Positions 22,826 to 63,084 of a DNA stretch of 64,000 nt are shown one piece after another. Position numbers and translations under genes: made by a program. Within the stretch, counting starts at the first letter, position 1; every line of letters starts with the position of its first letter. The notes under the pieces were generated by a model. It saw nothing but the letters and a program-made list of their open reading frames with translations. It did not search any database and was not told where the DNA came from. Source of the stretch: Morinoia aosen (lineage: Eukaryota; Arthropoda; Malacostraca; Amphipoda; Talitridae); contig CM059573.1 of the NCBI GenBank assembly GCA_030386875.1, forward strand, positions 26,453,891 through 26,517,890, written 5' to 3'.

Positions 22826-23194
22826 ACACAATTTGGCAAAGGTCAACGCGATCGCTTTGTAATTTCTGTGAATTTGTGAGTGCAGTATAATAAGTGCATT
22901 GTATTTTTGTTTGGATTGTTTTCATGTGCAAAACGTACAAATTTCAGTAGAGGCACATAACTCGTAGTATAAAATTTTCTGTATTCCGGGGTGAGAAGCC
23001 AGCAAGCGCACTACCATACAGCTAAAGAAGTGAAAGTGTTTATAAAAGTGATGAGATGCAGTGAGAAAATTCTAGTGTGTTTACGCGATTAATTCAAAGT
23101 GTCAGTGAGATTTCACAGTAAGTAAGTTTAAAATTATTTGAGTGATCGCAAATTTTTGAGTTTTGGAGAAGGTGAATTGGAGAAGATCGACACT
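22826..23194 (+). other. leader with candidate primer-binding site
   Basis: This is the untranslated region between the 5' LTR and the first gag ATG. TTTGGCAAAGGTC, starting 6 bases after the LTR, is placed where a tRNA primer-binding site (beginning TGG) is expected. I could not match it to a specific tRNA. Confidence 0.4.
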
Positions 23195-24214
23195 ATGCCT
23201 GCGCGCGGGAGGAGAAACAACGACCGCAGAAATGCGCCAGCAATGCCACCACAGCCCGAAGAGGAAGCCGTTAACATGCCTGTGGTAACGAGTTGCGTGG
23301 GTGCCATTGGGGCCAAGTTTAGGAGAGGCGACAATGTGGGGGAACATATGGCAAGATTGAAGTTTTTGACGGGTAATCTGAATAACAGTGAGCAGGTGAA
23401 AGCCTTCTTCCTATGCCTAGGTCAACAAGAGGCAAAGGAGTGCAATCTAATAATTGATACACTAACGAACCTACGAGATGCAGAAAACTGGTTGCGCTCT
23501 TACGACGACCAGGTCGAACATCCAACTCAAGCGCTGTTTGAAATAGTGACCAAGAAGCAAACAAGCCGGGAAGGAGTGTCAGAGTACCTGACGCGCCTGG
23601 AAAGGCTGTACAACGAGAATTATCTGGAACATCCGGAACGAATCCTTGTAGATTTGATGTGGCTCGGATTAAGGGAGAACATCACAAGACCATTTCGAAG
23701 TGATGCGCGACCTACGACAGTACAAGAACTGAGAGACATGGCAATCGAGGTGGAAAATCGACGGATAGTACCAGTGCCAAGGGAAACGACAGAGAAGAGG
23801 GAACCGGAGAGAGAAAGAGCGCAGCGAAGCGAGAGGAGGCCACAGCATGAGACTGCACGTGTCGGCCATACGATGCGGCATTCACCACAACGGCCTAGAG
23901 GGTACCGCCAGGAAGTGCCACCCTGGAGAGAAAGGAACAGACAGACACGCCATTCTCCTTATCATCGAAGAGGAAATTATGAAGCACCCCACTGGAGCGA
24001 AAAGGGCAGACTTAGGAGTCAGCAGCACCAAATATACTACGCAAGAAAGCCACAGCCGCATCCGGAAGCACCACCTGCACCTGCAGTGGATTTAGCACAG
24101 TATAGAGCAGTGCCACCGCCGTGCGTCAACTGTGGTAAATTTGGGCACCTAAGAGCTGATTGCAGAGTGCAACATTTTGCAGGACAGCCAAAAAACGGGA
24201 TAGGAGACCGTTAG
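23195..24214 (+). CDS. gag: Gag polyprotein of the Gypsy-type element
   Basis: The frame from the first ATG at 23195 gives 339 residues; the frame is open upstream but only from a TTG, so ATG 23195 is preferred. Gag forms the retrotransposon particle. The N-terminal half contains a helical capsid-like segment with typical Ty3/Gypsy Gag phrases (QALFEIVTKKQ, VSEYLTRLERL). An Arg-rich middle follows (about residues 190-300), then a zinc knuckle CVNCGKFGHLRADC with exact CX2CX4HX4C spacing for RNA binding. The end overlaps pol by 55 bases in the frame one base back, and the slippery heptamer at 24190 lies just before the stop. No stop or frameshift interrupts it. Confidence 0.93.
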   Translation: MPARGRRNNDRRNAPAMPPQPEEEAVNMPVVTSCVGAIGAKFRRGDNVGEHMARLKFLTGNLNNSEQVKAFFLCLGQQEAKECNLIIDTLTNLRDAENWLRSYDDQVEHPTQALFEIVTKKQTSREGVSEYLTRLERLYNENYLEHPERILVDLMWLGLRENITRPFRSDARPTTVQELRDMAIEVENRRIVPVPRETTEKREPERERAQRSERRPQHETARVGHTMRHSPQRPRGYRQEVPPWRERNRQTRHSPYHRRGNYEAPHWSEKGRLRSQQHQIYYARKPQPHPEAPPAPAVDLAQYRAVPPPCVNCGKFGHLRADCRVQHFAGQPKNGIGDR

Positions 24215-30454: not shown

Positions 30455-30467
30455 AAAGGAGCGGGGA
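30455..30467 (+). other. polypurine tract
   Basis: AAAGGAGCGGGGA immediately precedes the 3' LTR, where plus-strand DNA synthesis is primed. An A-run and a T-run lie just upstream (about 30413-30450). Confidence 0.7.
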
Positions 30468-32410
30468 TGTTGGGAAAGATTTAATTTTGGAAATTTAACT
30501 AATATTGTGCTAACTGATTGGTGCTCTTGTGTTTTGGGGTCATGTCGAGAATAATCAATTTAGCGAATGATTTAACGAATTAAAACATGAGAATTTAGGA
30601 AAATGGTAATTATGATTTCATTCTGCGTTTTTTAGAATTTAGGGAAATTATAATTATGTGTTATAAAATTTTATTTTTGTTGATTAAAATTCCAGCGGTG
30701 CGGAGGTGTAGTCTCTTCAACATTTGTGTGTGTTACAAGCCAGAATGTCTGGACGGGTGTGTGTGGTGAGCCCATAAAGGATGTGTTGTTTCAGAAAGGG
30801 TGTGTTGTTTCAGGCAGGGAGTGTGTAACTCTATCGAGAGGGGAGAAATAACAATCTCAACGGTTGAGCACTAAGACGTTCGAAAGTGCTGACGCCTTGG
30901 TCCAGGCGATAGCTGTGTATATTATGTTCTCAAGATTTTTGGCTATACAAGCAGTCTGCTGGCCCTCGGCGGGTACCGCATGCTGTGTGGGTTAATGGCA
31001 CAATCTCAAACTCCATACACAGTGCTCGACAGATTTATGGCAAGCACTTGAGCGTGAAAAGGAAACTCTCAGAAATAGTCGGAGGGCTAACGTTGAGATC
31101 GGCGGTCCTGCAAACCCTCGAGAGGGAGGAGGCTGCTAAGTTACGTCAGAAGGCTCTAGGCCAATACCACGACATCAATATGGTGGGAAAGTAGTTGAAG
31201 CTAAGGAACACGAATGAGGCTTTAGCTGCGAAACAAGAAGGGCATTCGAACATGACGTAGAAGCTTCTAAGTGTGTGATTGGCCGTGCGTGAACTAGAAC
31301 ACCGCTTTCTCGCGAACAAGTGGGTAGAGCTGATGAGAAAAATTGAGTCTTGCGTCGGCGATCGTCGGATATAGTACGTGTTAAAAATAGGAGGTGTTGA
31401 AAATTACCCTGAAAATATGTGACATAGATATCAACACAGGGAGTTAAACTTATCAAAAATTTCGCTTAATAAAATAGTCTCCGTTTTTCCACAGAGGGTA
31501 AATTGCAGACCTGGCTAAAGCGGGGAAATCATTCTGAAGATGCCACATTAAGTGGGGAGGGTAAGAGTGATGTAATTACCTCTGGAGAAAATATTTTGAA
31601 ATAGATATGATAAAAGTGTGTGGCCTTTTGTTGAAGTGAAGATTGGAATATTTAAGGGAACTTCATTAGCACGACTAGAAGTAATGAGTATTTAATTTTC
31701 ATCGTGCAGGCGGGGAGGTTTTTTTGTCATCGGCTTGGAAGAAAGGGAGATCATGGGTCAAGATAACGAAGCGGGACGAGCAGTGTGATATCAGCAATAG
31801 ACATTTTGAGCTGTGCATAAGGCAAAAGTTGGAACTGAAGCTGTGTTGTTTAATGAATGTATGTTTGAAGTGACACCACCTCCAGCACTGTTAGAATATG
31901 AACATGTTGTAGGGCTCATGTATCAGGACCTGCGTGATTAACGTACGGGGATATGCTGGCCAGCGGTAGCATTTATTGTCATTCTGTTATGTAAGCTGTT
32001 TAACACATGAAATCTCTAGAATACCATTACTCAATTTACACCAGTTCTAATGCCATACATTGCGTGCGTTTATCGATGTTCTGTATGATGTATTGCCGTA
32101 AATTATAAATTAAGTGAATTTTCACGTGTATAAAGTCCCCCCCAAATTTAGTAGCAAGCAGCCCCTCATCATAACTGATGCGCTCTGAAAAACGCGCATT
32201 GAGTAAGTCGAGTTCAACGTACATCGGTGAGTACTGCCCAATTTTAGTATACACATTTTGTAGTAGTGTTGATTTGTTTTGGGCTTGCCCATAAATTTTC
32301 CTTGTGTTTCCTGTGCATTTTATTGAGGTATGCCAACCCCTCAAGCGAGCATTCGGTCTTCTCATTAGTGTAAATTAATGAGAGACGAGGCAGACAGCCT
32401 TCTCGTGACA
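30468..32410 (+). repeat. 3' LTR
   Basis: 1943 bp, same ends as the 5' LTR and shifted by exactly 9585 bp. Differences noticed: A to G at about 31284 and C to T at about 31450, relative to the 5' copy. It is followed by the ATTG target duplication. Confidence 0.95.
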
Positions 32411-37750: not shown

Positions 37751-38683
37751 ATGGCTCCCCAAGAACGAAGTAATGAAAAAGAAGATGCAGATCTAAATAA
37801 CCCCGAACAGCTGTCAATTACCTACGATGGCTAGCGATGGATGATGCACAAGTTGATCGCCAGAGGAGGCTTTAGTCGCGTCTATGAAGCCAAGAGTGAC
37901 TAAGATGACCAAACTTTAGCGTGTAAAGTCGCTGTCTAAAAGAGTAATCCTAAAACATTTCTTAGGTTTTATAACACTGAAAAATAATGTGGGCAATTAC
38001 TTATCCATCCTAATATCGTTACAGTTTTCGCTAACAGGTTCATGGAACAGAGCCGAATATATATGATACTGATGGAATATTGTCGTTATGGAGACCTAAC
38101 TGGAATTTTCGACCGCCGAGATCCAAACTTATCATTGCGACATTCTCGCTGTGTTTTGCGGCAGCTGTCCAGTGCCCTCGAGTACATGCACGCGAAGAAT
38201 GTAGCTCACAGGGATCTAAAGTTAGAGAACATACTCATAGCAGGGAACATAGGCGACGAGCACCAACACTTGAGCATCCGCGTTGCTGATTTTGGTTTGA
38301 GTTCCATTGAGGCGACCACGTCTTTTTCGCGTCCAGGCACCCGATATACCATGGCGCCTGAAATGCTGAGCTCCAGAGGTCCTTACGATCCTTACCCTGC
38401 TGACGTCTGGGCTATAGGGGTTATTGCATTCTGCCTCTTGAACGGCACTTATCCTTTTGCTTTCAGAGGCACAGCTAAGAAACAAGTGTTCGAACAAAGA
38501 GACGCCACTTGGCGGAAGAGGTGCAAATCCTCTGTAGAAGGTTACCCGCCTGCTTACAGTTTCTTGGAGAAAGTTCTGACACCAGTTGTAAAAGCGAGGC
38601 CCACTGCGAAGCAACTTCGGCTCAACCCGTGGCTGAGAGCCCCCTGTCGGCTGAGCATCAACGGCTCCAGCGTTACTGCATGA
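37751..38683 (+). pseudogene. testis-specific serine kinase-like, stops in N-lobe
   Basis: One frame of 311 codons from ATG 37751 to a TGA shows a full kinase domain without introns. N-lobe: ARGGFSRVYEAK (glycine loop) and LACKVAV with the ATP-binding Lys, then HPNIVTVF. C-lobe: HRDLKLEN, ADFGLS, MAPEM, DVWAIGVIAFCLLNG and a final LNPWL. The order and wording fit the TSSK family (sperm-development kinases). Four in-frame stops (codons 28, 51, 63 and 79) all fall in the N-lobe. From ATG 38042 the remaining 213 codons are open with the catalytic Asp and DFG intact, but such a product would lack the ATP-binding lobe. No poly-A remnant is seen. Most likely a decaying gene or retrocopy. Confidence 0.8.
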
Positions 38684-45757: not shown

Positions 45758-47579
45758 CTGAACGTGGAACACAGCAAGAGATTCAGCAACAGAAATCTCT
45801 TGAAATAAGGTTTAATACATTTTTCGTACTGACGTTTGTCGAGAAACGATGTAGAATACAATAAAATGCACTTTAAAAGTGTTTCGCTGAAAGTTGAACG
45901 ACCTATTCAAAAAGGGAACTTCGTTAGGAGACAGTTCTACAGTATGTACAAGAAGCAGGGATATCATTAGACGGGCGAGACAGAGTAGAATTGCCAAGGT
46001 CTAGGCAAATAACGAAGGCACGGCAAAATACCCAAGGCTTCCTTAAACTCCTACGCAAACTCTAACACCAAGGACAGTTAAAACATAACCATAGCGCTCA
46101 GTGAAATATGAGGCTCTCAAGTTGAATAGCGAAGGCACAATTGAAGAGTCATTATTGCAATATTATCATCCAAATTGTTAAACGAGGCCTGAGCAGCGCT
46201 AGGCTCGTAGCAGCGCTCTTGACCAAAGAAGAATATGAAAAAACATACTCAAGCAGGAGTGCGACGAGAACACAAGTCGGCTACACCTCTGCAGTGACTA
46301 CCCTCTTCTGAAACAAGAATTCACGTAAATGTTATCACAGCGTTGCTTCGTTCGCACGAGGCAGCTCGGTGTTCTTGGTGAATTCTTAAGTTCTCTTGTG
46401 AAGCGCTTTACAAGTTCCTAAACATTCTTGAATGCATGAATTCTATTCAACATTCAAAATACGATGAAAGACAATTCCGAGGAGGTTAAAGCGAGCTAAA
46501 ACAAGTTGTAATGAGCGAAGGCAATCCTGAAACGCCCACACAATATGAAAATGAAGATAAACATCAGAGAAACAAAATGTAAATACCAATCAGAAACATA
46601 GGAGCGACAGGTCTTTCATTCCTGTGAGAGATATAATTTTCAATCAGGCTGGACAACAGTACACAATCAGGCTGTTTATATATTGAAACTTAAACTGCCC
46701 AGATATTGTTATCTAGAAACGTATTCCAACAGAGCAGCACCTCAACAAAATTTGTCAGGTAGTAGAAAAAAACGCAATTTGAAGGATGAAATTACATGTG
46801 AGACTACTACAACTTCACGATGAGCCGATTGAATTGTAATTAACTCAGCATCCGCAGTCGATTTGAAGTTCTACAGGGAACTTAATAATATATGCGTGTC
46901 AGCCGATCCGCTATGTTGCTTATCGACTCTGAACTAATTATTTGACCTTTTCCTCACACTTAAACGCTATTGTAGGCACATTAACCATTGTAACCATTGC
47001 AGTTTACATATCAAATATTAATGACTGAGAATTGAGAATTACTGCTACTTACCTAATTTTGTTCACTTGAATCATATCGTGAACGAAAATACTGCCATCA
47101 CCTTCATACGAGAGTTTATTCTCAAACTGGCGCATTATGTCTCTCTGAAGTATTATTTATTAACTATGATGATCCCTGGTTTCACAGTAGTAACTACACA
47201 CGCTAAAATAGAGGATATAAACATAGTTTCTAGCCGCATAAAATGGAATAACGCTCACATCGGCAGAAAAATTTAGATCATTAGAAATAACTTAATTCAT
47301 TTTCCATGCTGGACATGTCTTTTCTCCCGCCAACGTGTACCTAAGTATATTAGTTTCAACAATACATGAGAGAAGAAAAGTAGTGATATCTTATGGCACG
47401 TCCACAATCGTAATTAAAATTATTGTTTTCGTTTGCGGACACATCATGGTTCATTTCGGCGCAGTAGAGATAGATCTTTCTACTGCAAAGCTTGAGCTCA
47501 TTAAATATCGACTAATTTAATGAAAGCGATGCATACCATTATACATATCTCCCATTTTAATGCGACCATATACTATTGC
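45758..47579. other. AT-rich non-coding stretch
   Basis: No supported gene. Short frames at 45812-45997, 47067-47276 and 47335-47520 lack motifs. Confidence 0.4.
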
Positions 47580-47585
47580 TTTATT
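47580..47585 (-). terminator. candidate polyadenylation signal
   Basis: AATAAA on the minus strand, about 450 bases after the stop codon of the protease-like gene. No nearer AATAAA was noticed. Unproven. Confidence 0.25.
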
Positions 47586-48031
47586 GTGCACGACCGGATT
47601 TTACGCATTACATTAAGATTTAATGAATAATCTATTCGAAGCAAAATCTTACGAAAACCGAGTCGTAGTGAAAGTTGGGCATGAGAAAACAGAATTTTTC
47701 CAGCACTACAGCGAAAAATAAAGCAACTATATTTTTTTACTGAACTGGCATGAAATGAGATTGAGATGGTTAACCCACGTTACCTTTCATTTCTCTCATA
47801 GTTAACGGCCGTACCATTTGAAGTTAAACTTGCCCATGCGCACGTAAAAATATCTAGTAGAATTATTAGAGCGAGCACATCACGCAACAAATGGGAAGGT
47901 AGAGTCAATATGCCAGCATGCCTCAGAGCCCAGAAATATGATCTACGAACGGTGATGAACAGTAGTCTGGTAATTTTGAATATCACAAAAATCAATGAAT
48001 ATTACAAACAAACTTAAAAGGTAAGCTTGTG

Positions 48032-48955
48032 CTATGATGTTCCATTAAGTGCCAACAGTAATGGTGAAAAGGGCAACGGACGAGGTGTAATGGACGTAGA
48101 AACATCAGGAGAAGAAGATGAAAGCTGAGGATCTTTTGAAGTTGAAGACGTCGATGAGGACACTGACGATGATACTGACAACGCTGACGGAGTTGATGAT
48201 AATGAAGAAGTAGGGGATAGTATAAGTAAAGGGTCAGGGTCTTCGGGGTTTAAAGAGGATTCAGACGCATGAGTTGTTACTGAAAATGAAGTGTTACGTG
48301 AAGGAGCAGCATGTTGTACAGCGGAAACAGATGGTTCGTTGGCGGTCAAGTCAGTTGAACTCATAATCGTGGAAGTATGGCTAGCCACCGGTATTTCTGT
48401 ATTTTCAGCCGTTTTAATGCTGTCATCGTCGATGGTTTCACCTCTTGACTCTCTAGCGGCATCTCCCTTGATATCAGCTGACATGCTGTCAATCATAGTT
48501 TCAGTCCCAACACCACGGGTATCAGCAGGGTTCGTTGTCTCGCCGATAAGAGGTGCAACAACAGTCTCTACTGATCTGGGAGCGAAAATTGCATCCACAT
48601 TTTGTAACTTATCTGAATTTTCGTCTGCTACTGTAACTTCTTCACCGTCAGCGTCGGCAGGAGCAGAACCCACATCGTCAGCTTCGGATTCTGCAAGAGC
48701 AACAGTTTCTTCTTCGACGGCTGAGGCTCGGGCCTCATGCACCTCCACTGAAGTTTTGGCGGAGGTTGTCCCAAGAACAAACTTAGGGCTTTTGGCCATT
48801 CCGACGGTGTTCAGGATCCACGTTTCCAGGGCGCCTGTGGCTGTAAAAATGGCGGGATGCTTGGCGGTGCCGCAGTTGCTGTGATGGCTGAGGAGGCCCT
48901 CTAGGCGCCAAGTGCCGTCGCTGGACTGACACATCAAGGGACTGCCTTCATCGCC
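48032..48955 (-). CDS. pseudoprotease gene, last exon (dead active site and tail)
   Basis: 307 codons and TAG after a TTACAG acceptor. It starts GDEGSPLMCQ, where active proteases have GDSGGPLVC, and continues LEGLLSHHSNCGT and a final helix ETWILNTV. Then comes an unusual tail of about 250 residues: first Glu/Ala/Asp-rich, then Ser/Thr-rich (SSTSSTSKDP), ending PLPFSPLLLALNGTS. The short end is not a convincing GPI or membrane signal. Confidence 0.88.
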   Translation of the reverse strand, partial: GDEGSPLMCQSSDGTWRLEGLLSHHSNCGTAKHPAIFTATGALETWILNTVGMAKSPKFVLGTTSAKTSVEVHEARASAVEEETVALAESEADDVGSAPADADGEEVTVADENSDKLQNVDAIFAPRSVETVVAPLIGETTNPADTRGVGTETMIDSMSADIKGDAARESRGETIDDDSIKTAENTEIPVASHTSTIMSSTDLTANEPSVSAVQHAAPSRNTSFSVTTHASESSLNPEDPDPLLILSPTSSLSSTPSALSVSSSVSSSTSSTSKDPQLSSSSPDVSTSITPRPLPFSPLLLALNGTS

Positions 48956-51900
48956 CTGTAACGAAAGTTTCTGTGAGAAAGTAAACTTGTCGATAACGAG
49001 TACTCAATCTTTAAATCATTTTCCTGTAATCCTCAAAATATAAATGAGAATGAATAATTTGACAGATTACGAATCTTCAGATCTCAAATAAAGAAAATTC
49101 CGAGCAAATAGAGTATTCGGAGATACAGTTGGTGTTACGTCACTATCATTTTACAGAACTTCAGCTGGATTAAACTGTACCCGATGTAACGGGGGCACTG
49201 TACGAACGTAGCTCAGCATACGAGATAAAAATTAAAATTTTACCGGTTAAATTACTACGAATTAAAATGCAAACAATAACACCTACAAAAAAAGGATTGT
49301 GTATGCATTTATTTTATGAGATAATTGCCTAAAACCGAATTCATGAAAATTTAGTGATAACAATACTATGATATAAACTTTAGAGAATTTAGATAAAAAA
49401 TAACAGGGTGTCTAAAGATATTTCACTTCCAAATTTTACTACTTTTCTACAGCTTTTTGCCACTTTCAACAGCAAAAATTACTACCTATTTTTACATCTT
49501 GATTGTTGTCCAAACTTCCAGAAGTAATCAGTCTATAATGAGTAGTTTCATTCAATAATACACGCAATAACAAATGTTCGAAAAAGTTCCCAAGTTCTGG
49601 ATACTTAAAATTCTGAATACAATATTTGATACTGAATAAAGCAACCAATGCATAATTGCAAAAAATCACCCAAATTCTTAATGTAGCCCATCTTAAATGG
49701 ACTCCAACAAATGTTTGGCAAAGGCCCTGTCATAACATCTTTAAACAATGAGAGCAACTGTTCATCATAAGCAAAAAAATAAACTGACTGGAAACCAGTA
49801 GCCACCAAGGGCTTGTCAAATCTCCTTACAGGAATATTGCCCCAAAAACTGCGGCAAATTATTGATTCTGGGAGAAAATTTGAAAAAATCTTTATATTTT
49901 CGTACATATGTAGATTACTTCCAATTTTCAGTAAATTATCTCATTTCACAATTTTTTACTACCTTGATGAGTAAAATAGCGCCCTGAGACCAATTTTTAC
50001 TACTTCTTACTTCCTTTTTTCCTACTTTTCAAATTTTACTATTACTACTTTTTACTACTTTACTACCTAGTAGACACCCTGTTAAATCTTCGGGTATACT
50101 TTTTTAAAGAACGAATGACTCCAGCGTAGATTGAGCTTCAATGATGCTTTCAGCGAGTATCGTACTCGTACCTTCCACTTATGGCATCGATTATGAATAA
50201 TTCCTTCTGTATAATGGAGTACTACTAAGATTTGTCTAGAAGAGATTTTATCATACGGAACTCGGAATATTGAACTTAGACCTCTGCTATTCGATATAAA
50301 ACTCAACACTTATTTCATTTTCAGCACAACTTCAACTCATATCGAAGTAGGGACATAAATTTTTACCTCTGTCAAAATTTATACACATAAATCCTAGTAC
50401 ATCTTAGTGTATCACCTCCGACTAAATTTCAAGCGATATGAAAAGTTAAATCACGAATTCACGTTTCGAACGGCAAAAAAAAAAAAATATTAAAAAAATG
50501 GGCTGTGTGTGGAGTTTGCGAATAGATTATAATTATTTCAATAAGTCTAAACGACTTCGCTTCTGTTTTTCAATTCTTTATTAATTGGTAGTTCGTGCGA
50601 GTAACCACTTTTAAGCCTAAGAAAGCGAAACATTTATACGAAGTAATGCTGACGTACACTGTCTCATGGTTGGCACACTTATGTGTGTCGTATAAACCCA
50701 TGACACAAAAATGTCGCAACACATAGATTGATGCTGCAAAATGATGACACTTTTGTTGGTCAGCTTTTAGTCAAGTTGACACAGAAAAGTGGGTCAATTT
50801 TGTAAAAGAAAAAATTTCTGACGGTTTTCGTTCCATGAACGCAGGTGACCCATTTGTATACTCAATTGTACTTTATTTCTCGCTCAGCTATATATTTATA
50901 AAACTCAGATACGCTGATTGGTTTTCTTGCTCGCTTGGTTGGATCGTAGTCACCGTCTAGGCGCAGTTGCTAGTGAGATCATTGGGCAAAGTTTGAAATT
51001 TCCCGTACGCTGTACAGTATTGGCAAATAGATACTTATTATGGATACTTATTTTTCGAGAAACATTTCCATAAATTAACTTTCTCAGCAACGTAACGTAG
51101 AGAGTCACTAAAAGTCTATAAGATCTAAACGTAAGCGCCGAATGCTTTTCGGTTAAATTTTTTCTATTCCTCTTAGTGAATCTTTATTTATAACTTAATT
51201 ATATTTCATTCTTTCTTTCGAACTTCTAACGTAATTTTCATAACCAAAGGCTTTCTTTGTTAATAATTGTTTAATTCTCTTAACTTTTGTCTAACTCATA
51301 TTACAGTTGACTGTCATAAGAAGTCGAAAACAAGAGCAGTAAAACCTCATAACAAATTTCAAATTTCCAACCCTTCAGGCCCAGGTAAGCAGTTTAGGGG
51401 GCTTACAAAGTCATGAAACCGGTGAAAAAAACCGAAAATGCACGTCTCAACGAGAGAAGCTCGCCAGTACCACCACGTAAGAACTAATGCTTCAGCCCCG
51501 ATGAAATTCCTATCGAAGTTACCATAAAGCTATAGGTAGGACCTAATATTAGCCGCCGAACAATGAAAAGAATTTTCAAGCCCAACCTGGAAACATTTTA
51601 GTGTTTCGAAAAACCCAAGACAATTTCACTCTAAATAGACTCACGACAAAACAGAGGTAAAAATTTTACTCAGTCTTCCTTTAGACGACAGCCAGCCAGC
51701 CAGCCACAAGGAGTATGCTTACGGTTAAGAAAGTTTTCAGTACTCAAAATACCTGATTTAGAATTCAGCACAAACAAAGAGTCAGGAAAACAGCTCTCAT
51801 TTCTAAAGCGCTTAGGGAATTATTATGTTCTTTATTGGCTCGGTTTGGTAGATTAGATTCAGAAACTCCTCTGACATTCACAGACGCAGAATTAACAAGT

Positions 51901-54900
51901 AGGTTTCGTGTTCTCACTACTGAACTACGTCTTCTAACACTACCCTACTAACTCGTAATTTTTACTAGGAGAATGGCATGGTGTTCCTTGGCCATCTGGT
52001 TTTCTCATGTCAATTCGATGGACTCAGACATTACGTTCACTCAAAAAAAGTGAAGTGCATTCTCACTTCCATTCGAATCGAATTTCCCCGATACCCTCCA
52101 CGGTCCGAAATCTGAACACACAATGTTCTTTATTCCAAGGTTATTCCACTATATCGTCGCGTTAAATCCACCGTCTGACTTCATTTCGAAAAATAACGTG
52201 ATAGCACAATGTCTACAAACATTTTCATCCTAACAAAACATGTTTCGTAATTTATTCGATGTAGTTGAAGAATAAGATCTGATTTTGCATATATAAGCTC
52301 ATCCCACTCTGTGCACACGTTGTTTTTCCTTGTATATTAATCTGACTCAAATATATTATCCAAAACACTGGAGTAGACGAAAGGATGGAAGCTAGGGTAT
52401 AAAACGAAGCAGTTTTTGGAGCACATAAAGTATTATCGAGTATTTTGCTCTAAGGCAAACCTGAGCCGAGCCAATAATCTTTAATACTAAGTACCAAAAG
52501 CTAATCATACGCTGTGTCGTAACATAGAATTACCTAGGCCGTACTCCACTGTCATGCTAGAGGAATTACCTTCGGAATAAAATCATCAGACATCAATTTT
52601 TAAAAAATTATGATAGCTTAAAATATGTCACGATCTAAACTAAACTAAAAGAGCATATGTCACATGCAAAATGAACGAATTTTTCGGAGAAAAAATTATA
52701 ATTTCCGAAGTAAAGCGATTGAAAAGATGCATTTTGACTCTGAAAGTATCCATTACTTCCCTGAAACAGTGATCGAGTCTTGCAGTTGAGAATAAGTTTC
52801 TAGCTACAAGGATGCAAGCACACGGAAGAAGTCTCGCATGACAAAGAGTAAGTCCAGAATCACTGGGAGATAAGGGTAGGTCAAAGCAGCCTCACGTGAC
52901 ACGGGGCAGGCTGGAGAGCGTCGAGCTGAGCGCACATGTGCGCGCTGGAGAGGCGTCCTCTGTAGTGCGTCGAGTTGCACTCCGTCAGGTTGACATGCGA
53001 TGCGCCGGGTAGGGTCTGCAGCTGCAGCCAGAAGGGCGGGCCGCGCTCTGCAACACCACGAACACGCTTATGACGTGCTTTACAGGACTGTGCGAAGTGG
53101 CAGCCAAAATATATTTATTTTAGATTAGATACAAAAGCTATCAATACAATCATAGATAAAAAGTTAGACTTTCTTTTTCATGAATTCCATGATAGAAAAA
53201 TTCTGCACACTCAGAAAATCGAAATTGCGATTAGAAATTATAAAATGAAACTGAACAACACAATATCGCTGAAACTGCGAATTACTTCTTTACACAAAAC
53301 ATTCATACAATATTTAGTTGACATCCCTCCAAACGAGTAAAAGACACACAACATTTATCGCTATTCGAGCTCTGCCCCTTTCTGGCAACGCATCCCACAA
53401 CAGCTGTCCTGACAACTTAGCCCTTGAAATTGAGTATCTCAACGGTGTTTCCTCACCCTCAGGAACACGAGGCCTCCAGTTGGCGAAGACACAGGGCCCA
53501 GAGGGAGGGCTGGAGCTGGGGCCCGAGGCTACGCAAACCGAGCGCGTGTGTTGATCTAGACTCAGCGGGGACACGAGGCGGATGAGGGCCAGGTCCCCAG
53601 TCCACAGACCCTCTTGTCGCTTGGCCCCAGGGTATCGCAGGACCTGCACGCATGCGACCATAAAATGTTCTCCGCCGCAGTTCTTTCAACGGATAAAAAA
53701 TCGATTTTTGAATACATTTCTAATAGCTTCTTGCACGGTGAATTTATACCGCGAAGTATTCTTCAGAGTTTATGGTCTAAAGATAGTCCATTTCTCAGCA
53801 TGATGTTATTTTTCATCATGATGTTGGTGACAACTTGATGCCAGTGTCAGTCTCATGATGGTGCTTATTACAACGTTAAAATGTATAATGGACGCTTCAC
53901 ACACCTCAATTTCCGTGGTTGAAATTGTAAAAAATACAAAACGAATGAAGGCAACTCCATGAATTCAAACAGTAACAATTATTTACACACGACTCATTTA
54001 AAACGACTTTACCGATCAAATTTTTACATCGTGAATATATATCAAAGTAAAGTCAAATTGGAAACTGTGATATATTTAGACGGCGTCTAAACAGTGAACT
54101 GAAAAGTTAATCATACACCACGGTTTCCTTCTCAGCCGCGCAAATTTCAGCACAATTTAATATTAGTCGTGAAAAATGAACAATTTTCAAAGAACATTTT
54201 AATTAGTGAACGATGAGTAATACTTTACTTTTCTATTGAAGCCTCTTAATCGATTCCATTTTTACAATAATAACTGCTTATAAATTATGTTTTCGAAATT
54301 TAACATGATTTTTTTATTTTTCAATTGAATTACACTAGAATTATGTATCTATTATTCTGGCGCGGGATCGGTAACATTTATGGAGTTGCAGTCCAATCAC
54401 ACTGGAATGACACGTGCAAGTAGGCCGCTCGTATGCGTTAGTTAGTTAGTTAGTGGTCTAAGATGTATAAATAATTCTATTGAATCTCCTCGGATATCAA
54501 GCTTGAACTTTCATTAAATCAAATGTTATCTCGCAACATCGTGTTTGCACTCACAACCGATTTGAAGTTATTCTATGGAATTTATTTATTTTGCTTTACC
54601 ATAACTCACCCAATCGTCTTGCTAAATGAGCAATACCAATTATCGTTTCTAATTTGATGGTCCGCTTAAACACTCAAGAGATGAATTCTTTCGATACAAG
54701 TTGTGTTCCTTGAAAGAGGACTTGTTGGAAATCAAAACTTCACTCGCATCTTCAGTTTTGGATCTCTTCCTCTGCAGGAGTTTTTAGAATAAAAATTCAA
54801 TCACAGAAATGAGGACAATATTTAACTCAAATTGTCCCTCATATTAAGTATGGAAACACTACTTAAAACCAAAATAAGAATTCACGCAAAAATGAAACAT

Positions 54901-57900
54901 TTTTCCCAAACAATTGTTGAAGAAGGTGATACTTTTTAACGGATTATTTAACGAATTTCTTTTACTACACTGCTAGAAAAATACAAATATTCAACTTCAG
55001 CCAGAATTATTTCAACGTTATCGAGCAAATTTTTTTTTGTGTGGAAGAAAGCACTGACAGCGAAAGTTCACTGCACCCCGTAATGTCTGTAAGATAGATT
55101 TAATACAAATCATGTTATGAAAAACGAAACCTACACTTATTGCATAAGATATCTACGCTATAAGTATAATGAATCAAACAAACCTGGCTGACGTGCTTGA
55201 GCTGAGCACTCGAAGATTTTGTGCTTGGAGCGCCTTCTCCGGTGACCACTGCCCAAGTATCAGGTTTGAGTCCGCCTGGTTGTGAAGCAAGACACGAGTA
55301 CGCCGTGATTAGCCACATGGGCGACAGAACAGATGCTGCACAAGGATGAGTGAACGAGGGAGCTGGAGTAGTGTCAGGGAGTTCGTCTTCTATAGGAGGC
55401 GTGTGAAGCAAGATCGCTAGGGACGGCCACTGAGAAGACTCTTTAAGTGTTGAATCTTTGTTATCTGAAGGAGAATAATCCCACGAACCGCATTCGTCAT
55501 GATGACATGTCAAGTGAACTAAGGCGTCACTTGAGCATTGATCGAGACTGAGTGCGTACTGCAAAGGAGTACGCGATCGAGTGGAAGCATCCGATGCCAA
55601 ACTAACTCTCGGGCGTGGAACAGTAACCCCACTATCGTTAGGTGCTGGACTCTGAGCGCGACGAACTTCTGTGCTGACGCTATTACCTCCCACAAGTTGT
55701 TCGCACACAAGGTCGGACCAAGCTGAGGTCCACCCATCACCACAGACAGAGCGCCAGAGAAAGGCCCCGGACCTAACTTCAAGTCTGCGAGTCGAATTTC
55801 TAATGCGAACACAGCCCCATTCGTCAGAACCATCGGGACACTGGCGAAGACCATCACATAAATGGAATGTGGGGACACAACCTCCTACAGCACACGCTGC
55901 CTCGTCAAGACCAGCACATTCACACCCGCGTTCGTCTTCACCGTGTTCGCAGTCGGTCATGCCATCGCAGCGCCATCCGTTGGGTATACACCAGCCTTCA
56001 GGACACTGGAATTTATCCTTATCGCATTCGGCCTCCTCTTCCACTACACAGTCTCTTTCGTCTGTGTGATTGAAACAATCGGGTTGTCCGTCGCATTGTA
56101 ACGAAAGAGGAAGACAAGGTCCACTTGAAAGGACTGACGGCTCAAGAGCTGTAGATGAAGCATCTTGGAAAGTAGATTCGCATCTGAACTCGTTTTCCAA
56201 ACAACTCCATGTATTACAACCTTGCTCGTCGTCACCACCTGGACAATCCGTGACACCATCACACACCAAACGTCGTGCGACACAATCGCCACTCCAACAC
56301 TGGAAATTAAGGAAACATGAATTTTTCACACAATTATTTTCATCAGACCCATCTGCACAGTCTGGAACTGCATCACAAAGATGAACGTGAGGTAGACAGC
56401 GACCACCACACTCGTGCATGTCATCAGAACACAATCCACTCGGAGCCGCAGTAGTTGAATTTTTATGAGCTGTTTGCACAGGTACGACATTATTGAATGA
56501 CCAAAGAAGTTCAGGGTCACTGGTGGCTGCAGAATCATTAAGTTCTCCTGCTAAAATTTTTTCAACGCTCACTGATTCAGACAGCACCTGGTCTCCATTA
56601 GAAGTTTTGGAAGCCTGTACAGTCCCAGAAACTGTAGAAGTTGAGATAACAGTAGGGAGCGGCGTAGTAGAAGAAGTCGTTGGTACTGGAGGAGGTGTGT
56701 TGTTAGCTAGATTTCCATCATTTACGGCGAGGATTTCGGCTTTTATCACTTCAATCGTACTACCGGTCACAGAATCAGGTGCAGTTGAAAGCGTGTTGTT
56801 TTGGATTTCACTAGGATATTCAAGAGAATTAGGAGTTGTTGAAATAATGGACAAAGGAAGAGTCCTATTAGGTCCATTTTCAACTTCATTGGTGACTTCA
56901 GGTTTTTCACTGAACATTTGTGGAGTTGCAGTTGTAGTATGAACCAACAAGGTTTCAGTAGTATGCGAAGATATCTCATAAGTCTGATTGGCCTGAATAC
57001 GATCAGCTGTTGAGGCTGATGCAGGCGTTTTCGATAGTTCTTCTCCAACAGCATTCGCTCTTAAATCAGAAATAAACTTCTCCGTAGTTGTTGTAGATTC
57101 AATTTTGGCACTTACATCGCTCACAGTAGCAGGTGAAGTAGATGGAGATGCTTTTGAGGTTACATTGATCTGAACCTCAGAAACTATATCGTTAACCTCA
57201 GTTTCTTTTTCCACAGCTTCCTCTATCAAAGTGACATCACTTGAAGAGTTATCATGGGGAGTAAAAACAGAAGACTGATCAACACTCAGCCCAGGAGTTG
57301 TTGATGAGGAAGCAGTTGAGGTTTCAATAGCGACCAAAGTTTTGGGTGTTGTGGAAGTTGAACTTGCTGATAATGTAGAGCTCGCATCGGATGTAGCTGT
57401 TGAAGCTGAAACAGTGGTGGAAGTCATAGATAGCGTCGTCACTTCGAGGGCGGTCGGAGTGGAATTTTCAGCGTTTTCTGCCACCTCCGGAACAAGCATT
57501 GGGATTTCAATTTCATTTGAATCAGGAGATTCAGGAACAACAATTGGAATAGACCCGTTTAAGGTGACTGAAGCATTGGTTGAAGATAAGTCGACTGGCG
57601 TAGTAGTAGTAGAGGCAGACGACTCAGGGGATTTGGTTGTGGACGTCGAAGATTGCTGAAGAGTTGAAGATGCTGTAGACGACTGCTGAGGCGTAGTTGA
57701 ATGAGGAGCCTCCTGGGTCACAGATGTAGAAGACTGTTGAGTAGAAGAATCGGGCAACGGCTTTCCTATATCAGATTCAGTAGAGGGTGACAGCTGATCC
57801 ACGGCTGCAGAAGTAGATGACTGTTGAGGTGTAGATGGGGATGTAGAAGACAGCTGAACTGTGGTCGAGACACCGGTAGAAGACTGCTGAACAGTGGTCG

Positions 57901-60900
57901 AGACACTGGTAGATGGCTGCACTTCTACAGGGGTGTGTGCTGCTGAACTTTCAGTTGTTGAAGATGATGAGAGTATTTCCTCAACCGCCTCTACTGGAGG
58001 ACTTTCTACGGTTTCTTCAAGCGTTTCACCGGTAGAGTCTCCGTCTGGAGTTTCTACATCACCAGATGATGCGGACACATTGCGATCGTCAGTGATTGAT
58101 ATAGTCGATGAAACAGTCTCATTAACAGCAATGGTTGGGTCGATTGAAGTTACATTTTGATCGCTCGGACCTAGTGCTGAGACATTAACTGTAGGTGTAA
58201 CTGCTGAAGTCGAAGGCGTTTCTGTCGTTGATGCTGTTGAAGTAGGGGAACTTGCTGTTGATGAAGTACTAGAAGTGGTCGAAGTTTCATTGGAAGCGAT
58301 CACTTCAGAACCAGTACCTTCTTCATCCTCATCTTGGGAATCTTTTTGCTCGTTTTTTATGCTAATTAGAGCAACATTGCCTCCAATCTTGCTGAAAATT
58401 TCACTGAAGATGTCGTTGAGGTACACTTCAGTAGTTGTTGTAGTTGTTGCAGCTTCTGAAAAAGTGCACAAAAAATACATTTACCACTTGTAGAATCTGT
58501 CGAAAATATCAGTGTCTCCAAGTAAACAATTTGATTTCTCAACAGTTGAAAAGTTTGTACAGTCTTCAAATGGGAAAGGAAAAGTCAATAAATTGTATTG
58601 ACTTCTTTTGAAACTAATAACTCTAGTTATTCGCATCGTACGGAAATATTCAACTTACTTTGATCGATGCAAGTTGTTTGATCCACCAAAATCATGAAGT
58701 CTGGGCAAAGGCAGGAGAACCGAAGAGTCTCATGAGAAAAGACGCATTCGTTACTGCAGAGCGAGGCGTTATTCGAACAAATATCCACCACTCCTGCAAT
58801 AAAAGAGCGGTTTAATTTTTGATAGAATGTATATTCTGTATATGAAATAGTTACACAATGTAGAACGTACATTTTACAGGTGATATAATTATATAATTGT
58901 TCAATGGCATTTGGGCCTTCCATAAATAATTCCAATTAGGATAAATTCCAAATTACTAAGCGTTTCAGTCTTTTGGACAAGAAAAAACTGGAAGCAAAGC
59001 ACTGAAAATAATTGAAACGAACAAAGGATAAATCTCAATGACCATTGATTGATGTACCGTTCAAGGTAAAGAACTTACTGTCAACGCTGAGAGTGTCGAC
59101 AGGGACTCGGTACTTGGCAATAGCTCCTCCGTTGCTTTTGATGTATTCTTCGAGTCTACTTCTGACAATTGTGATGTTGAGTGGTGGAGGAGGAGTAGTG
59201 TTGGGGTCAATGAAGAGCCACCCAATTCTGAAAGTCGTAACAATACTACCAGGATCAAATTTGATAATCTTGAATTTCAAAGCTGAATTGCCATTGTATT
59301 CGATTTCAGACGTGACGAGTATATTCTTCAGTTCCTTTTCCAATAGTTGAGCAAGTGCTTGATATTCTTCTGTCTCTGGTCGCCTCAACTCCGGAGTGAA
59401 ACTTTCGTTGGTTATACTGAACTTAACTTCTATTGCGTTTTTAACATACTTATTACCAGCGCCGTAACCACTCTCACTACCTAACGCCAAACCTGTAAAA
59501 CGACTGCCTACCTGCCGCAACTTGCCAGAACCAACAAAAGAGCCGACGATGACAGCAATTGTTAGCACTAACAAGCCTGCACAGAACAGAAGACACTTTC
59601 GTCCACTTTTACTAAGCCCTTTATAACCCGTCTCTTGCGTTTTACCCCTGTCCATTCTGTCCATTCTATCTTTCTCTATCATTTCTATTCTGATATCATC
59701 GTAGCTCCCGCTGATGTTATCAGGCTTTCCTGAGTCGAGGATAAATTTAACTCTGTTGATCGAACGCTGAGGATCAGCGGGCAGAGACTCAGGCCTGCAG
59801 CCATCTGCCAGGTCACTCGGATCGTCCACAATGCTACTAGGATTACTTTTATTAAGACCATTTTGCTGGCCTACGTCTAAGTTTATCGTGACACAGGATC
59901 CACTCTTCTTCAAGATGCCTTTCCGAACAGAAGAAACCGACGACCGACCACTTTGTAGTCCACTTCTATGGCTGGCCGGGGAGTTCCTGAGACTCCTGAA
60001 GCCATGAATCCGCGGGCTATTTGATGGCGATGATGGAGAGCCGTTTACTGTAATGCTGGACTCACTCGATGAATCGCTGTCCTCTTCGAAATGTTTAGCT
60101 TTCTTTCGTTTACTCTTCTTGTCGCGATTTTCATCGCTGTCATTCTCATCGTCCTGCTTCCCATTTTCATCGGGTGCATAAGCCGGGTTGCAAACACCAG
60201 GATCGTCTTCTCCATCCATTACGATTTTACTATTACTCTCGCCGAATAAATTCTTTTCACTATTATTATTATTGAGGTTCTTACTTTTACTGCTCTTGTA
60301 CTCCTTGTCGGCTTTTCCCCCTTTATTACTAGTTTTACTTTTCTTCTTTTTCTTTGAGTCGTCTTCATCGTCAGTTTCGTCCGTATTGGACGAGGACGAA
60401 GTAGCATTGGAACCTAAAGAAAATCTACTCTTTTTGGTTTTAGACTTTTTCTTACGACGAGGCTTTGGAGAAGTTAAGTTCATCACTCGCCCGTTGGAGA
60501 GCGGCTGAGGGGACCGCGGCACATCCTCCTCCTGAAATAAAACAAATGAATTAACTAGAAATGAACCATATTTGAAGCAGTAGGCAACATCATAGTAATC
60601 TTTACTAACATTTGTAATCGTCCTTAAGCAAGTGATGAATCACACGACAATATAGCACAGCGGCCGGGGGTTATCAACTGTCCAGATTGTTTCATAATGT
60701 CTGCTAGGAATTTATGAACAGAGGAAGTGATACACGGCTAGTGTTGAGGATTAGATAAGAATAGATTACAAGTTAGTTCAAGCCTCCTAAACCACAACAA
60801 ATTGGTTCCAAAGAGAGGAATCGAGAATCGAGCTAAAGGAACGCGGAATCTATGCACAAGGTGTGTTTCCACACAAGATCCTCTGGCATTATTATTATTT

Positions 60901-63084
60901 TATTATTATTCGTAAATATTTTCAGCCCCAAAAAAGCTAAAGTTACAATAGCATGTAATAAAGAAACTCGAACATCTCAAATCGATTAGGAGATGTGTTC
61001 AAGCAAAATAGGGGACATTTCTGTGGGATGTATGACATCCAAGACATTGCTGTGGGATGTATGACATCCAAGACATTGCTGTGGGATGTATGACATCCAA
61101 GACATTGCTGTGGGATGTATGACATCCAAGACATTGCTGTGGGATGTGTGACATCCAAAAGACTTGAAAGACGTGAGGAAATGCAGAGATTTACAGCAGT
61201 TGAATGAGTTAATGAGTGAATCAATGATGAGCTTGAAAAATGTGTTTCAAAATATATGCGTCATATTTTCAAACATAAAACCGCCCCGCTAAAAAATGGT
61301 ACTCTACCGCATTACTTATTTCACACAGTGATACATATTGAACGAAATGAAATAAATAAAAACTAACGATACTTGTAAGTGTGAAACCGAAGGGACGATG
61401 ACTCAGACAAGATGAAACGATGAAGAAAGAGATACCAAATCTTTACGCTAAGAAAACTATTCAAAACAATATTTATTTCGGAACACTTCCACACTTTCGG
61501 TACTGGTTCCGCAGACTCTCAATAGGTGTTTGGACACAAGGAGAACTTTGTTATGTTGCAATGTTGATTGCTGAAGCCAGTCCTAGCTGTAAACAGCCAT
61601 CAAGACCTTAGCAGAAGAGGAATTGAAGTTCAACTAACTCAAATTAGTCTTATAAGTAAGAACCAGGAAGTCAATTTCCGTACATAGAAATTTCTAACAA
61701 GCATCCGATTACACATTGCACTCACCGTTTTTACAGCCGTGCCATTTGGAAGTTTCTTACTCTCCACTCCCCCATTTTGTACAGGCTTCTCATCCTGCCC
61801 CTGCTTCTCACTGTTTTCTTCATTCTTCTTCTCATTTTTAACGTTATTTTTTACGACATCATCATCATTATCAAGTTCAGTTTTGGCGATATTTTTGACG
61901 ACGTCGCCGTCGACGAGGTCGGCTTTGGTTTTCTCATTCTCAGCGACCTCCGAGAGCTTGGGGAGGGGCTCCGTCCTCGGGGGTATAGCAGGCACCACGC
62001 CAGGCATGTACTTCGCGCGGCCGCCTCGAGTCCGAGTCCTCGGAGGCCCTCCGTTGCAGTTCGGGGGCGGCACCTGCACACCCGCCACACACAACCCGCA
62101 TTTAATTTCGTCCCACAAAACTCTAAGTTAACAAAACTTTAACTTCAACTTTGGACGAACTTCAACCATGGAATCTATTCTCTGGGCTCTCAACTCTGAT
62201 GAGTCCTTCTAAATAGTATAAATTGTAAGGCTGAAAAACAATAGGTTCAACTCTAAGCGCAGCTGAAGTCAGATGCAGCATGAAAATTAAAGTTAAGTAT
62301 AATGCAAATTATTATGAATTCACACGCAAGAGAAGAAATTATGTGGCTAAACTTCGATGTTAAGTATAGTCAAATTCATATGATTTGAGACATAGTGCGA
62401 GGTAAACTAACAAATAATACTTACATGAAGGCGATATCGCAGCCATTGAAAACAGTTATCAACAGTTATAGTTCCAGCATCAACCAATGCGTTGCATAAA
62501 CATGCAGTTTATCGCCTACTCTGACGAAGGCATTTTACTCACGGGTTCATCCACTTTCCGAACGACGAATTTTCGAATGTAGCCGCTGTCGAGGTTCGCG
62601 AGAGTCAAGATTTCTCGGTCCTACGGGAGAGCCAAAACCATGCAATCAAACAAGCACAAAGCAACTAAATGACATGAAAAAGATTCAAAAGAAACGAAGA
62701 AAACAAAAGAAAACGAAGAAAATTTCATACAACGGGCGTAAATTATGACTATAAAAACACACAAAAATTTACACATTATGTGACACTAGAGTATAAAATA
62801 TATACGAATAGTATACTATAGCTCCGCAATAAATTACGTAGTTTGTGAGTTTAAGGATGCTTTCATACCAATCGAATAATAGTCATTGAAAATAGTAATA
62901 AAAATGAGCCACGAGAGAGATAATTACACTATGCACTTAGTAGAGAAGGCCATGATAGCTGATCTAAGTTGGTGCACGAATCGATCCCTCGCTCAGCTCA
63001 AGATCAAGAACTGACCTTCTCATTGACTTTGGTGAGCCTGAACTTCTTGAGGAGGCCTGTGAACTGCCCGAGGAACTGCACCCC
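48032..63084 (-). CDS. SEA/LDLa/SRCR type II membrane serine pseudoprotease (partial 5')
   Basis: Nine exons with GT-AG borders join in one open frame of 2206 codons including the TAG stop: 63016-63084, 62543-62620, 61726-62073, 59079-60531, 58659-58793, 55184-58455, 53457-53643, 52896-53047, 48032-48955. Exon 1 starts with an acceptor, so the true N-terminus is not seen. Order (residues of this partial product): Lys/Ser-rich cytosolic region 1-478, membrane helix about 479-499, SEA 529-649 with GSIVT at 593-597, EGF module 651-694, Ser/Thr-rich stalk about 696-1365 with five QQSST repeats, five LDLa repeats 1370-1576, SRCR-like about 1577-1680, S1-like domain about 1690-1955, acidic/Ser-Thr tail to 2205. 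Lysines before the helix indicate type II topology. The layout is like corin or enteropeptidase, but His57 is Ser1748, Ser195 is Glu1901 (GDEGSPL), and no R-IVGG activation site is seen; Asp1802 remains. Predicted role: binding or decoy at the cell surface, not proteolysis. Orthology is not settled. Confidence 0.88.
48956..52895 (-). other. last intron of the pseudoprotease gene
   Basis: 3.9 kb, GTGAGG to TTACAG. It holds a small TIR element (49403-50082); the rest is AT-rich with no further exon recognised. Confidence 0.7.
49403..50082. mobile_element. small DNA transposon with TIR inside an intron
   Basis: The ends ACAGGGTGTCTA (49403-49414) and TAGACACCCTGT (50071-50082) are perfect inverted repeats with TA on both sides (49401-49402, 50083-50084). 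Subterminal AT-rich repeats with TTTACTACTT occur near both ends. Minus-strand open frames at 49605-49907 and 49466-49669 have no motif I recognise. It could be a Tc1/mariner-like or hAT-like derivative; the TA flanks favour the former. Confidence 0.6.
52896..53047 (-). CDS. pseudoprotease gene, exon 8 (S1 C-terminal part)
   Basis: Acceptor GTTGCAG, donor GTGAGG, phase 1 to 0. It encodes ERGPPFWLQLQTLPG, LTECNSTHYRGRLSS, AHMCA and APCH: the two Cys before the Ser195 loop are in trypsin-like positions. Confidence 0.85.
53457..53643 (-). CDS. pseudoprotease gene, exon 7 (S1 middle)
   Basis: 62 codons plus one base between TGCGTGCAG and GTGAGG. It contains TGDLALIRLVSPL, the Asp102 region with Asp preserved (residue 1802), and CVFANW, the counterpart of CWVTGWG. 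Confidence 0.85.
53644..55183 (-). other. intron between exons 6 and 7
   Basis: 1.5 kb AT-rich; contains GTTAGTTAGTTAGTTAG at about 54438. No element identified. Confidence 0.6.
55184..58455 (-). CDS. pseudoprotease gene, exon 6 (stalk, LDLa, SRCR, start of S1)
   Basis: A large 3272-base exon, phase 1 to phase 0. It begins with a Thr run, then a Ser/Thr/Pro-rich stalk of about 670 residues likely to be heavily O-glycosylated. Five LDLa repeats each end in the calcium-binding type DGSDE/DGGDDE/DERDC motif; the third carries an insertion of about 18 residues between its Cys 2 and 3. A divergent SRCR-like segment (SVCGDGWTSAWSDLVCEQL) follows, then CAASVLSPMWLITAYSCLAS, which is the His57 region with AYSC in place of AAHC. 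The donor is GTTTGT, somewhat weak. Confidence 0.9.
58659..58793 (-). CDS. pseudoprotease gene, exon 5 (EGF-like module)
   Basis: 135 bases, phase 1 at both ends, as usual for EGF module exons. Six Cys with EGF spacing: DICSNNASLC, SNEC, FSCLCPDF, TTC. It follows the SEA domain directly. Confidence 0.85.
59079..60531 (-). CDS. pseudoprotease gene, exon 4 (TM and SEA)
   Basis: 484 codons plus one base, between TTATTTCAG and GTAAGT. It encodes the Lys/Ser-rich end of the cytosolic part, the helix LLFCAGLLVLTIAVIVGSFV and the whole SEA domain. SEA domains are extracellular modules that often self-cleave at G-S-(V/I)-V; here the strand reads PGSIVTTFRI. Several N-glycosylation sites (NES, NTT, NIT) lie on the SEA side. 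Reading through the donor would give a stop after 15 codons. Confidence 0.9.
60768..60892 (-). repeat. unnamed ~360-bp interspersed repeat, inverted partial copy
   Basis: The reverse complement matches the 3' third of the family: TTGTGCATAGATTCCGCGTT through GTTGTGGTTTAGGAGGCTTG. It also carries the ACACACC and GATCCTCTG segments shared with copy 2. A TTATTATT microsatellite adjoins (60890-60912). It lies in the intron between exons 3 and 4. Confidence 0.75.
61021..61166. repeat. 29-bp tandem repeat with internal hairpin
   Basis: Four near-identical 29-bp units and one diverged unit (starts 61021, 61050, 61079, 61108, 61137). Each contains GGATGTATGACATCC, where GGATGT can pair with ACATCC around an ATG loop. 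The minus-strand open frame here is a by-product of the repeat. It is in the same intron as the inverted repeat copy. Confidence 0.9.
61726..62073 (-). CDS. pseudoprotease gene, exon 3 (cytosolic)
   Basis: 116 codons from VPPPNCNGG to TAVKT, between GTGTGCAG and GTGAGT, phase 0. Rich in Lys, Asp, Glu and Asn, without predicted fold. Confidence 0.8.
62543..62620 (-). CDS. pseudoprotease gene, exon 2 (cytosolic)
   Basis: 26 codons (DREILTLANLDSGYIRKF...) between TCTCCCGTAG and GTGAGT, phase 0 at both ends and open through to exon 3. Confidence 0.7.
63016..63084 (-). CDS. pseudoprotease gene, exon 1 seen (cytosolic)
   Basis: 23 codons (GVQFLGQFTGLLKKF...) between TGTGTGTGCAG and GTCAGT, phase 0 at both ends. 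The acceptor implies further upstream exons, none of which were found in 63085-64000. Confidence 0.6.

Follow-up and report, generated by a model that had tools for sequence, protein, structure and literature searches.

We describe a gene in a 64,000-nucleotide stretch of the genome of the amphipod Morinoia aosen (contig CM059573.1; the whole stretch is referred to here as the window), which lies on the minus strand (~63.1–48.0 kb) and encodes a membrane-anchored protein with a trypsin-type (S1) domain whose catalytic triad is broken at two of its three positions. That the protein is a pseudoprotease is near certain. The explanation we favour, with modest confidence and on sequence comparisons, is that it is a type II transmembrane pseudoprotease, of the same kind as SPH54 and found across arthropods, which would act as a membrane-anchored binding receptor and whose tail, in Malacostraca, would dock protein phosphatase 1 (PP1). 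A binding or receptor role as such is likely.

A trypsin-type fold with a broken catalytic triad

At the site of His57 the protein reads TAYSC, placing Ser at this position (codon 55297–55295, in the minus-strand exon 58455–55184, which carries SVLSPMWLITAYSC), and at the site of Ser195 it reads GDEGSPL, placing Glu there, with Asp102 kept within TGDLALIRL. These residues and their coordinates were reported in a first-pass annotation of this DNA, with which the exon translations agree, and they are not those of an active S1 peptidase. The peptidase S1A fold is retained: the joined 218-residue domain matches Pfam Trypsin at 81.4 bits (cut-off 20.6), and the separate exon pieces either fall below that cut-off or go unmatched. 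The three introns within the domain are bounded by GT-AG, have phases 0, 1, and 0, and leave open joins. The earlier description of a membrane-anchored S1 pseudoprotease holds.

The full model comprises nine exons (Table 1, in 5′ to 3′ order), all with GT-AG borders and joined in frame without stops, giving 2205 residues of which 478 precede the transmembrane helix. From the N-terminus these form a cytosolic tail, the helix, an SEA domain, an EGF-like domain, a Ser/Thr/Pro-rich linker of ~670 residues, five LDLa domains (119.8 bits over five stretches of the large exon), one SRCR domain (SRCR_2, 29.4 bits), the trypsin-type domain, and a Ser/Thr-rich C-terminal tail. This is the architecture of type II transmembrane serine proteases (N-terminal cytosolic tail, single transmembrane helix, stem domains, and C-terminal S1 domain), and we infer the type II orientation from the domain order. 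The first-pass annotation had placed the gene at 48032–58455; its exons there stand, and the gene extends farther 5′ (60531–59079, 58793–58659, and three more tail exons). No start codon was found, the 5′ end lying beyond the window.

The first-pass annotation had also set the gene among insects; the closest protein among the matches listed is from the talitrid amphipod Trinorchestia longiramus, and is 90% identical across the LDLa-to-S1 region, so that an insect origin was rejected in favour of a talitrid one. The annotated T. longiramus protein (P0121) follows the window exons over their full length, tail exons included, extends ~39 residues farther upstream than our model, and carries the same S1 residues (ITAYSC and CHGDEGSP). 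Since P0121 was annotated independently, a sequencing error or a wrong exon, both raised earlier as ways in which the dead triad might prove false, is very unlikely. A six-frame scan of positions 47,501–62,200 with four His- and Ser-site patterns found no hidden exon restoring either residue, matching only TAYSC, GDEGSP, and a chance GDDGEP on the plus strand. Identity to P0121 is high in the transmembrane helix (96.7%), SEA (95.2%), EGF (97.8%), LDLa (91.8%), SRCR (95.6%), and S1 (89.9%) domains and in the cytosolic tail (88%), and falls to 65.8% in the linker and 57.3% in the C-terminal tail, a pattern that looks like that of constrained domains.

We assessed conservation across 53 aligned SRCR-S1 rows (45 insect or unplaced and eight malacostracan), picked by name, domains, and coverage from the best 120 of 132, 120 of 509, and 120 of 394 matches, so that all counts cover these chosen rows. 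One protein was excluded as a match of only 124 columns (P0250), and the tree and counts leave out two broken models (Blattella P0248 and Asbolus P0280); the row jgi308 (counted with the insects) and the lgn rows are unplaced. No row has His57 (42 Ser, nine Asn, one Thr, and one Ala), and 49 have Glu195 (a poorly aligned Phlebotomus row being scored as Glu), the remainder being Ile in two aphid-group rows, Ser in krill, and Gln in Agrilus. Relatives checked within Pancrustacea thus share the loss of His57 and mostly carry Glu195, a point that the first-pass annotation had asked to be established, and five decapods share both Ser57 and Glu195 with the window. Asp102 is retained in 52/53 rows and Asp194 in 49/53. 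On a quickly built tree, made without the triad columns tested and with long branches flagged, position 195 requires three changes against a median of nine over 218 columns (28 columns are slower), Cys191 and Asp194 three each, and Asp102 one. Because so few changes are needed, Glu195 behaves like Cys191 and Asp194 rather than like a freed site.

Given that relatives share the loss, the S1 domain appears to be kept without classical catalysis. With His57 in none of the 53 rows and Glu195 in 49, this is hardly a decaying enzyme; the loss is arthropod-wide and Glu195 evolves slowly. The earlier proposal that the domains are kept for binding rather than cleavage is thereby borne out in its second part; binding itself seems a sensible suggestion. 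The protein falls within the SPH54/SerPH364 group by its SEA-EGF-LDLa-SRCR-S1 order, Ser/Asn57 with Glu195, and a tree that follows species phylogeny, in which the bee Eufriesea is included and the Apis and Tenebrio proteins are compared by their published descriptions. No Drosophila or Lepidoptera protein of the SPH54 kind was among the matches listed, where no search was aimed at its absence.

Outside Pancrustacea, the chelicerate proteins of Tachypleus (P0128), Ixodes (P0190), and Ornithodoros (P0303) each have two SRCR-S1 copies. Listed in that order, position 57 is Asn, His, and Gly in the first copies and Ser in all second copies, and position 195 is Glu, Ile, and Leu in the first copies and Pro, Ser, and Ser in the second. 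The possibility, noted at first pass, that relatives carry the active residues is therefore realized only in part: Ser195 occurs in krill and in the second tick copies (which have Ser57), and His57 in the first Ixodes copy (which has Ile195), with never both in one arthropod row. Intact triads occur only in distant nemertean and abalone proteins; the nemertean Lineus longissimus protein (P0169) has three S1 copies with all His, Asp, and Ser motifs intact and an SEA-like GSIVADF, and is a possible active relative. In the simplest history, His57 would have been lost early in arthropods and Glu195 fixed by the pancrustacean ancestor, an order complicated by Ser195 in krill, His57 in Ixodes, and Glu195 in the horseshoe crab.

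Activation site, SEA domain, and cytosolic tail

As the first-pass annotation stated, no R-(I/V)xGG activation site lies between the SRCR domain and Cys42 of the window protein. An Arg/Lys↓xxGG site precedes the S1 domain in 38/45 insect or unplaced rows versus 0/8 malacostracans, and its absence appears special to Malacostraca and a few others. The pattern is also absent from four intact-triad lophotrochozoan copies, so a missing site alone cannot separate dead from active proteins. Position 40, a residue that can pair with Asp194 in zymogens, is His or Gln in all eight malacostracan rows, and is His in one of the 45 insect or unplaced rows. A general link between site loss and His/Gln40 was rejected, as the seven insect or unplaced rows lacking the site have neither residue, and the combination is therefore counted as a single clade event. 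Given that the malacostracan form lacks an Arg15↓Ile16 cleavage site, its S1 head is probably held zymogen-like, on the evidence of this one clade, and His/Gln40 fits such a locked head. In the insect forms, cleavage followed by rearrangement could still take place with no catalysis involved.

Self-cleaving SEA domains carry the motif G↓SVVV, and the window SEA domain reads PGSIVTTF, from which cleavage at a G↓S[VI] site is predicted. A profile seeded with sequences already matching the site pattern aligned 53 SEA regions, and GS[IV] occurs in 33 of them.

The cytosolic tail contains GILK and RVKF, resembling the SILK- and RVxF-type PP1-docking motifs, in that order and with 51 residues between them, and docking is thus predicted. 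The SILK consensus is [GS]IL[RK], with a SILK-RVxF spacing of 8–107. The RVxF consensus has been given as [RK]x0-1[VI]{P}[FW] (PMC4794898), and SILK motifs have been reported as always N-terminal to RVxF (PMC3792071). Among tails long enough to cover both sites and of the expected form (the krill record has no tail), both motifs are present in six malacostracans, namely the window species, Trinorchestia, Portunus, Petrolisthes, Scylla, and Penaeus (P0126), in which they lie within invariant runs; only 26/475 four-residue windows of the tail are invariant. Among 42 other arthropod tails, none has a SILK-type motif and three have an RVxF match. Of 20,000 shuffles of the tail, scored with the published RVxF consensus, 0.15% had both motifs correctly ordered and spaced (0.06% with a stricter RVxF pattern). 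A PDB sequence search with a 101-residue piece of the tail returned nothing at E ≤ 10, and no paper linking this protein to PP1 was found in the literature searched, outside of which most subscription journals fall.

Several other features of the tails were noted. TLANLD, DDPGV, RSSVSS, and GSYDDIRIE (exons 62620–62543 and 60531–59079) are also invariant in the six malacostracans, without known meaning. Several insect tails have DPYDEYFVPVNEHRKYMRGEKLYVTKDKR in common, and a decapod look-alike lies between GILK and RVKF (Cherax DPYDDNYVPIDTHRFVGS, Penaeus DPYDDSYVPMDTHRFVSS) and is missing from amphipods. The crustacean RVKFIL may have its counterpart in a [VI]xFxL element, which reads PRITFVLP in stick insects and AGVRFDLG in Hymenoptera.

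A proposed membrane-anchored receptor and its alternatives

The near-identical replacement residues kept in insects and crustaceans suggest that the S1 fold likely does something other than cutting. In the receptor that we favour, the LDLa, SRCR, and dead S1 domains would form an extracellular binding head, probably zymogen-like in Malacostraca, on a long and probably glycosylated stalk. Self-cleavage of the SEA domain at G↓S may occur and would turn it into a non-covalent joint, open to being pulled apart or to shedding, and the malacostracan tail would dock PP1 through GILK and RVKF, placing a phosphatase under the membrane and tying ligand binding or shedding to dephosphorylation. Recruitment of PP1 in Malacostraca is a tentative prediction from motifs. 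The fuller scheme, a phosphatase-targeting receptor in which a zymogen-locked head senses ligand, tension or shedding is registered at the SEA joint, and GILK with RVKF holds PP1, is the boldest reading and less likely than not. The crustacean branch is distinguished both by loss of the activation site and by presence of the SILK motif, as though phosphatase signalling had taken the place of a proteolytic switch. In the crustacean form, a connection between a dead protease outside the cell and a phosphatase inside it would be open to direct test.

Several observations weigh against this explanation. Between the two talitrids, the S1 domain is less conserved than SRCR, SEA, or EGF and about equal to the cytosolic tail, and the differing residues at position 195 in krill, the two aphid-group rows, and Agrilus mean that Glu195 is not indispensable. 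GS[IV] is missing from 20/53 SEA regions, including all 17 hymenopteran rows, the crab Petrolisthes, Polyplax, and one fragment row. The PP1 motifs are short, and shuffled tails yield RVxF in 23.7%, SILK in 3.2%, and both in any order in 0.8%; the pair was spotted after inspection of the tail, which makes the shuffle figure post hoc, and the six species represent two orders. Of two further malacostracan records, that of Cherax (P0122, cut short at the 5′ end) shows RVKF without GILK, and P0010, the second from Penaeus vannamei and with its tail predicted differently, shows GILK without RVKF. The SILK motif of LAP1B was reported not to mediate binding (PMC3792071).

Cleavage of the SEA domain could instead shed the ectodomain as a decoy or inhibitor, with the dead S1 domain binding protease substrates, cofactors, or serpins in the haemolymph and anchoring serving delivery only. 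We regard this as unlikely: the common GS[IV] site and the (nearly) invariant Cys42, Cys58, Cys201, and Asp102, by which the fold persists, agree with it, but the specificity pocket is variable (ten changes at position 189 and nine at 190) and the oxyanion Gly193, kept in 7/8 malacostracans, is Asn in 39/45 insect or unplaced rows. In insects at least, the domain is therefore unlikely to dock a partner in the manner of a substrate, and a cytosolic tail about as conserved as the S1 domain would be unneeded for pure shedding. An immune pattern receptor, whose LDLa and SRCR domains bind microbial or cell debris under a passive S1 cap, is a rather poor prospect. The architecture does include SRCR, and bumblebee SPH54 transcripts shift on Crithidia (trypanosome) infection, but they do so in both directions: infection raised one transcript and lowered another, and a third was lower in the reported specificity analysis (PMC4302123). 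The Musca protein filed beside SPH54 is only 33% alike and is annotated there as a vitellogenin receptor (PMC5380684). Moreover, S1 columns such as 102, 195, and 198 evolve slowly, beyond what a passive cap would need.

Slow change at Glu195 and Asp102, together with His216 in 47/53 rows, would also suit an unusual enzyme in which the two acids make up a non-classical site, working by acid hydrolysis or by binding a metal. This is very improbable, given the rows that lack Glu195 and the absence of Gly193 from most insect rows, and we know of no S1 relative that works through such a site. A decaying gene or gene-model artefact is barely credible: some annotated models among relatives are odd (that of Blattella lacks most of the His57 region), but every join here is in frame and stop-free, the model is matched throughout in T. 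longiramus, the same replacements recur in five decapods, and sequence identity is concentrated in the domains and drops in the linkers.

Gene features, neighbouring elements, and known systems

Table 1. Exons of the pseudoprotease gene in 5′ to 3′ order, each followed by the features that we located within it.
Feature	Position in window	Strand	Remarks
Cytosolic-tail exon (GVQFLGQFTGLLKKFRLTKVNEK)	63016..63084	-	GT-AG, in phase; counterpart in T. longiramus P0121
Cytosolic-tail exon (DREILTLANLDSGYIRKFVVRKVDEP)	62543..62620	-	GT-AG, in phase; counterpart in P0121; partly conserved in decapods
Low-complexity cytosolic-tail exon	61726..62073	-	GT-AG, in phase; counterpart in P0121
Exon with remaining cytosolic tail, transmembrane helix, and most of SEA domain	59079..60531	-	
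GILK, predicted SILK-type PP1-docking motif	59908..59919	-	within invariant run RKGILKKS
RVKF, predicted RVxF-type PP1-docking motif	59743..59754	-	within invariant run RVKFIL
Transmembrane helix LLFCAGLLVLTIAVIVGSFV	59533..59592	-	mean hydropathy 2.71
SEA autocleavage-type site, G-S of GSIVT	59245..59250	-	
EGF-like exon	58659..58793	-	weak FXa_inhibition match, under cut-off; 44/45 residues the same in P0121
Large exon with Ser/Thr/Pro linker, five LDLa (from 56437), SRCR (from ~55810), and N-terminal S1 half with Ser57	55184..58455	-	
S1 exon with Asp102	53457..53643	-	codon 53595-53593, WTGDLALIRL
S1 exon with CNSTHY and Cys191	52896..53047	-	
Last exon with GDEGSPLMC, end of S1, Ser/Thr-rich C-terminal tail, and stop	48032..48955	-	Glu195 codon 48949-48947

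An intron of the gene contains a 29-base tandem repeat (61014–61158; five copies, 98% match). Elsewhere in the window, a frame on the plus strand (37988–38680) matches Pfam Pkinase at 132.5 bits, covers the greater part of that domain, and represents a separate gene, on the opposite strand to the pseudoprotease. A long terminal repeat (LTR) retrotransposon with Gypsy-like domain content occupies 20883–30767, with a pol frame at 24160–27888 (protease, reverse transcriptase, RNase H, and integrase) and a zinc-knuckle frame at 23132–24211; given that its 300-base direct repeats (20883–21182 and 30468–30767) are identical, it is probably a recent insertion. The first 859 bases are a tandem array of a 16-base unit (~54 copies, 94% match) with long open frames on both strands.

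Relatives of the window protein are publicly named enteropeptidase, atrial natriuretic peptide-converting enzyme, or serine protease P146, names that are misleading in implying an activity that the residues do not support; "serine protease P146" was not found together with Tribolium in the literature searched, again with most subscription journals outside it. No Frizzled or Clip domain was matched at E ≤ 1 in the frames of exons 62073–48032, nor at E ≤ 0.01 in the first 696 residues. Membership was rejected for corin (no Frizzled match) and for enteropeptidase (Ser57/Glu195 and no activation site), and the protein is not a Clip-domain serine protease homologue of the masquerade type (no Clip match).

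Among known systems, enteropeptidase, TMPRSS2, and hepsin share the type II anchor and S1 domain, were the top structure matches, and have stem domains such as SEA, LDLa, and SRCR; they are active, with His57, Ser195, and activation cleavage. Corin, including that of Drosophila, has the transmembrane helix, LDLa, SRCR, and S1 domains, but differs in its Frizzled domains and active triad. Matches also included the beta-chains of MSP and HGF, in which a non-catalytic S1 domain serves as a receptor ligand; these proteins are secreted, contain kringles, and lack LDLa, SRCR, and a transmembrane helix. Polycystin-1 (PMC3366979) and LAP1B (PMC3792071) also sit in membranes and carry a PP1-binding motif, whether RVxF-type or stated, but are not proteases, and the PP1 binding reported as measured in them is predicted here.

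The closest counterparts are insect proteins. Honeybee (Apis mellifera) SPH54, described in 2006, has the same domain order (a transmembrane helix, EGF, a low-complexity stalk, five LDLa, SRCR, and an S1-like domain) with Ser57 and Glu195 in ASYSC and NDEGAP, although the published table gives no SEA domain (PMC1761132). Unlike the window protein, most hymenopteran rows retain Arg↓xxGG, and the hymenopteran tails examined have no SILK motif. Tenebrio molitor SerPH364, described in 2024 and proposed to be type II transmembrane, has SEA, EGF, LDL, and SRCR domains with the same Ser/Asp/Glu triad (PMC11172050); most beetle rows, in contrast to the window protein, retain the activation site, and the beetle tails examined have no SILK motif. 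The dead triad was therefore already catalogued in SPH54 and SerPH364, and what is new here is that the loss reaches arthropod-wide depth, that the crustacean form has lost its activation site, and that its tail has the paired PP1 motifs.

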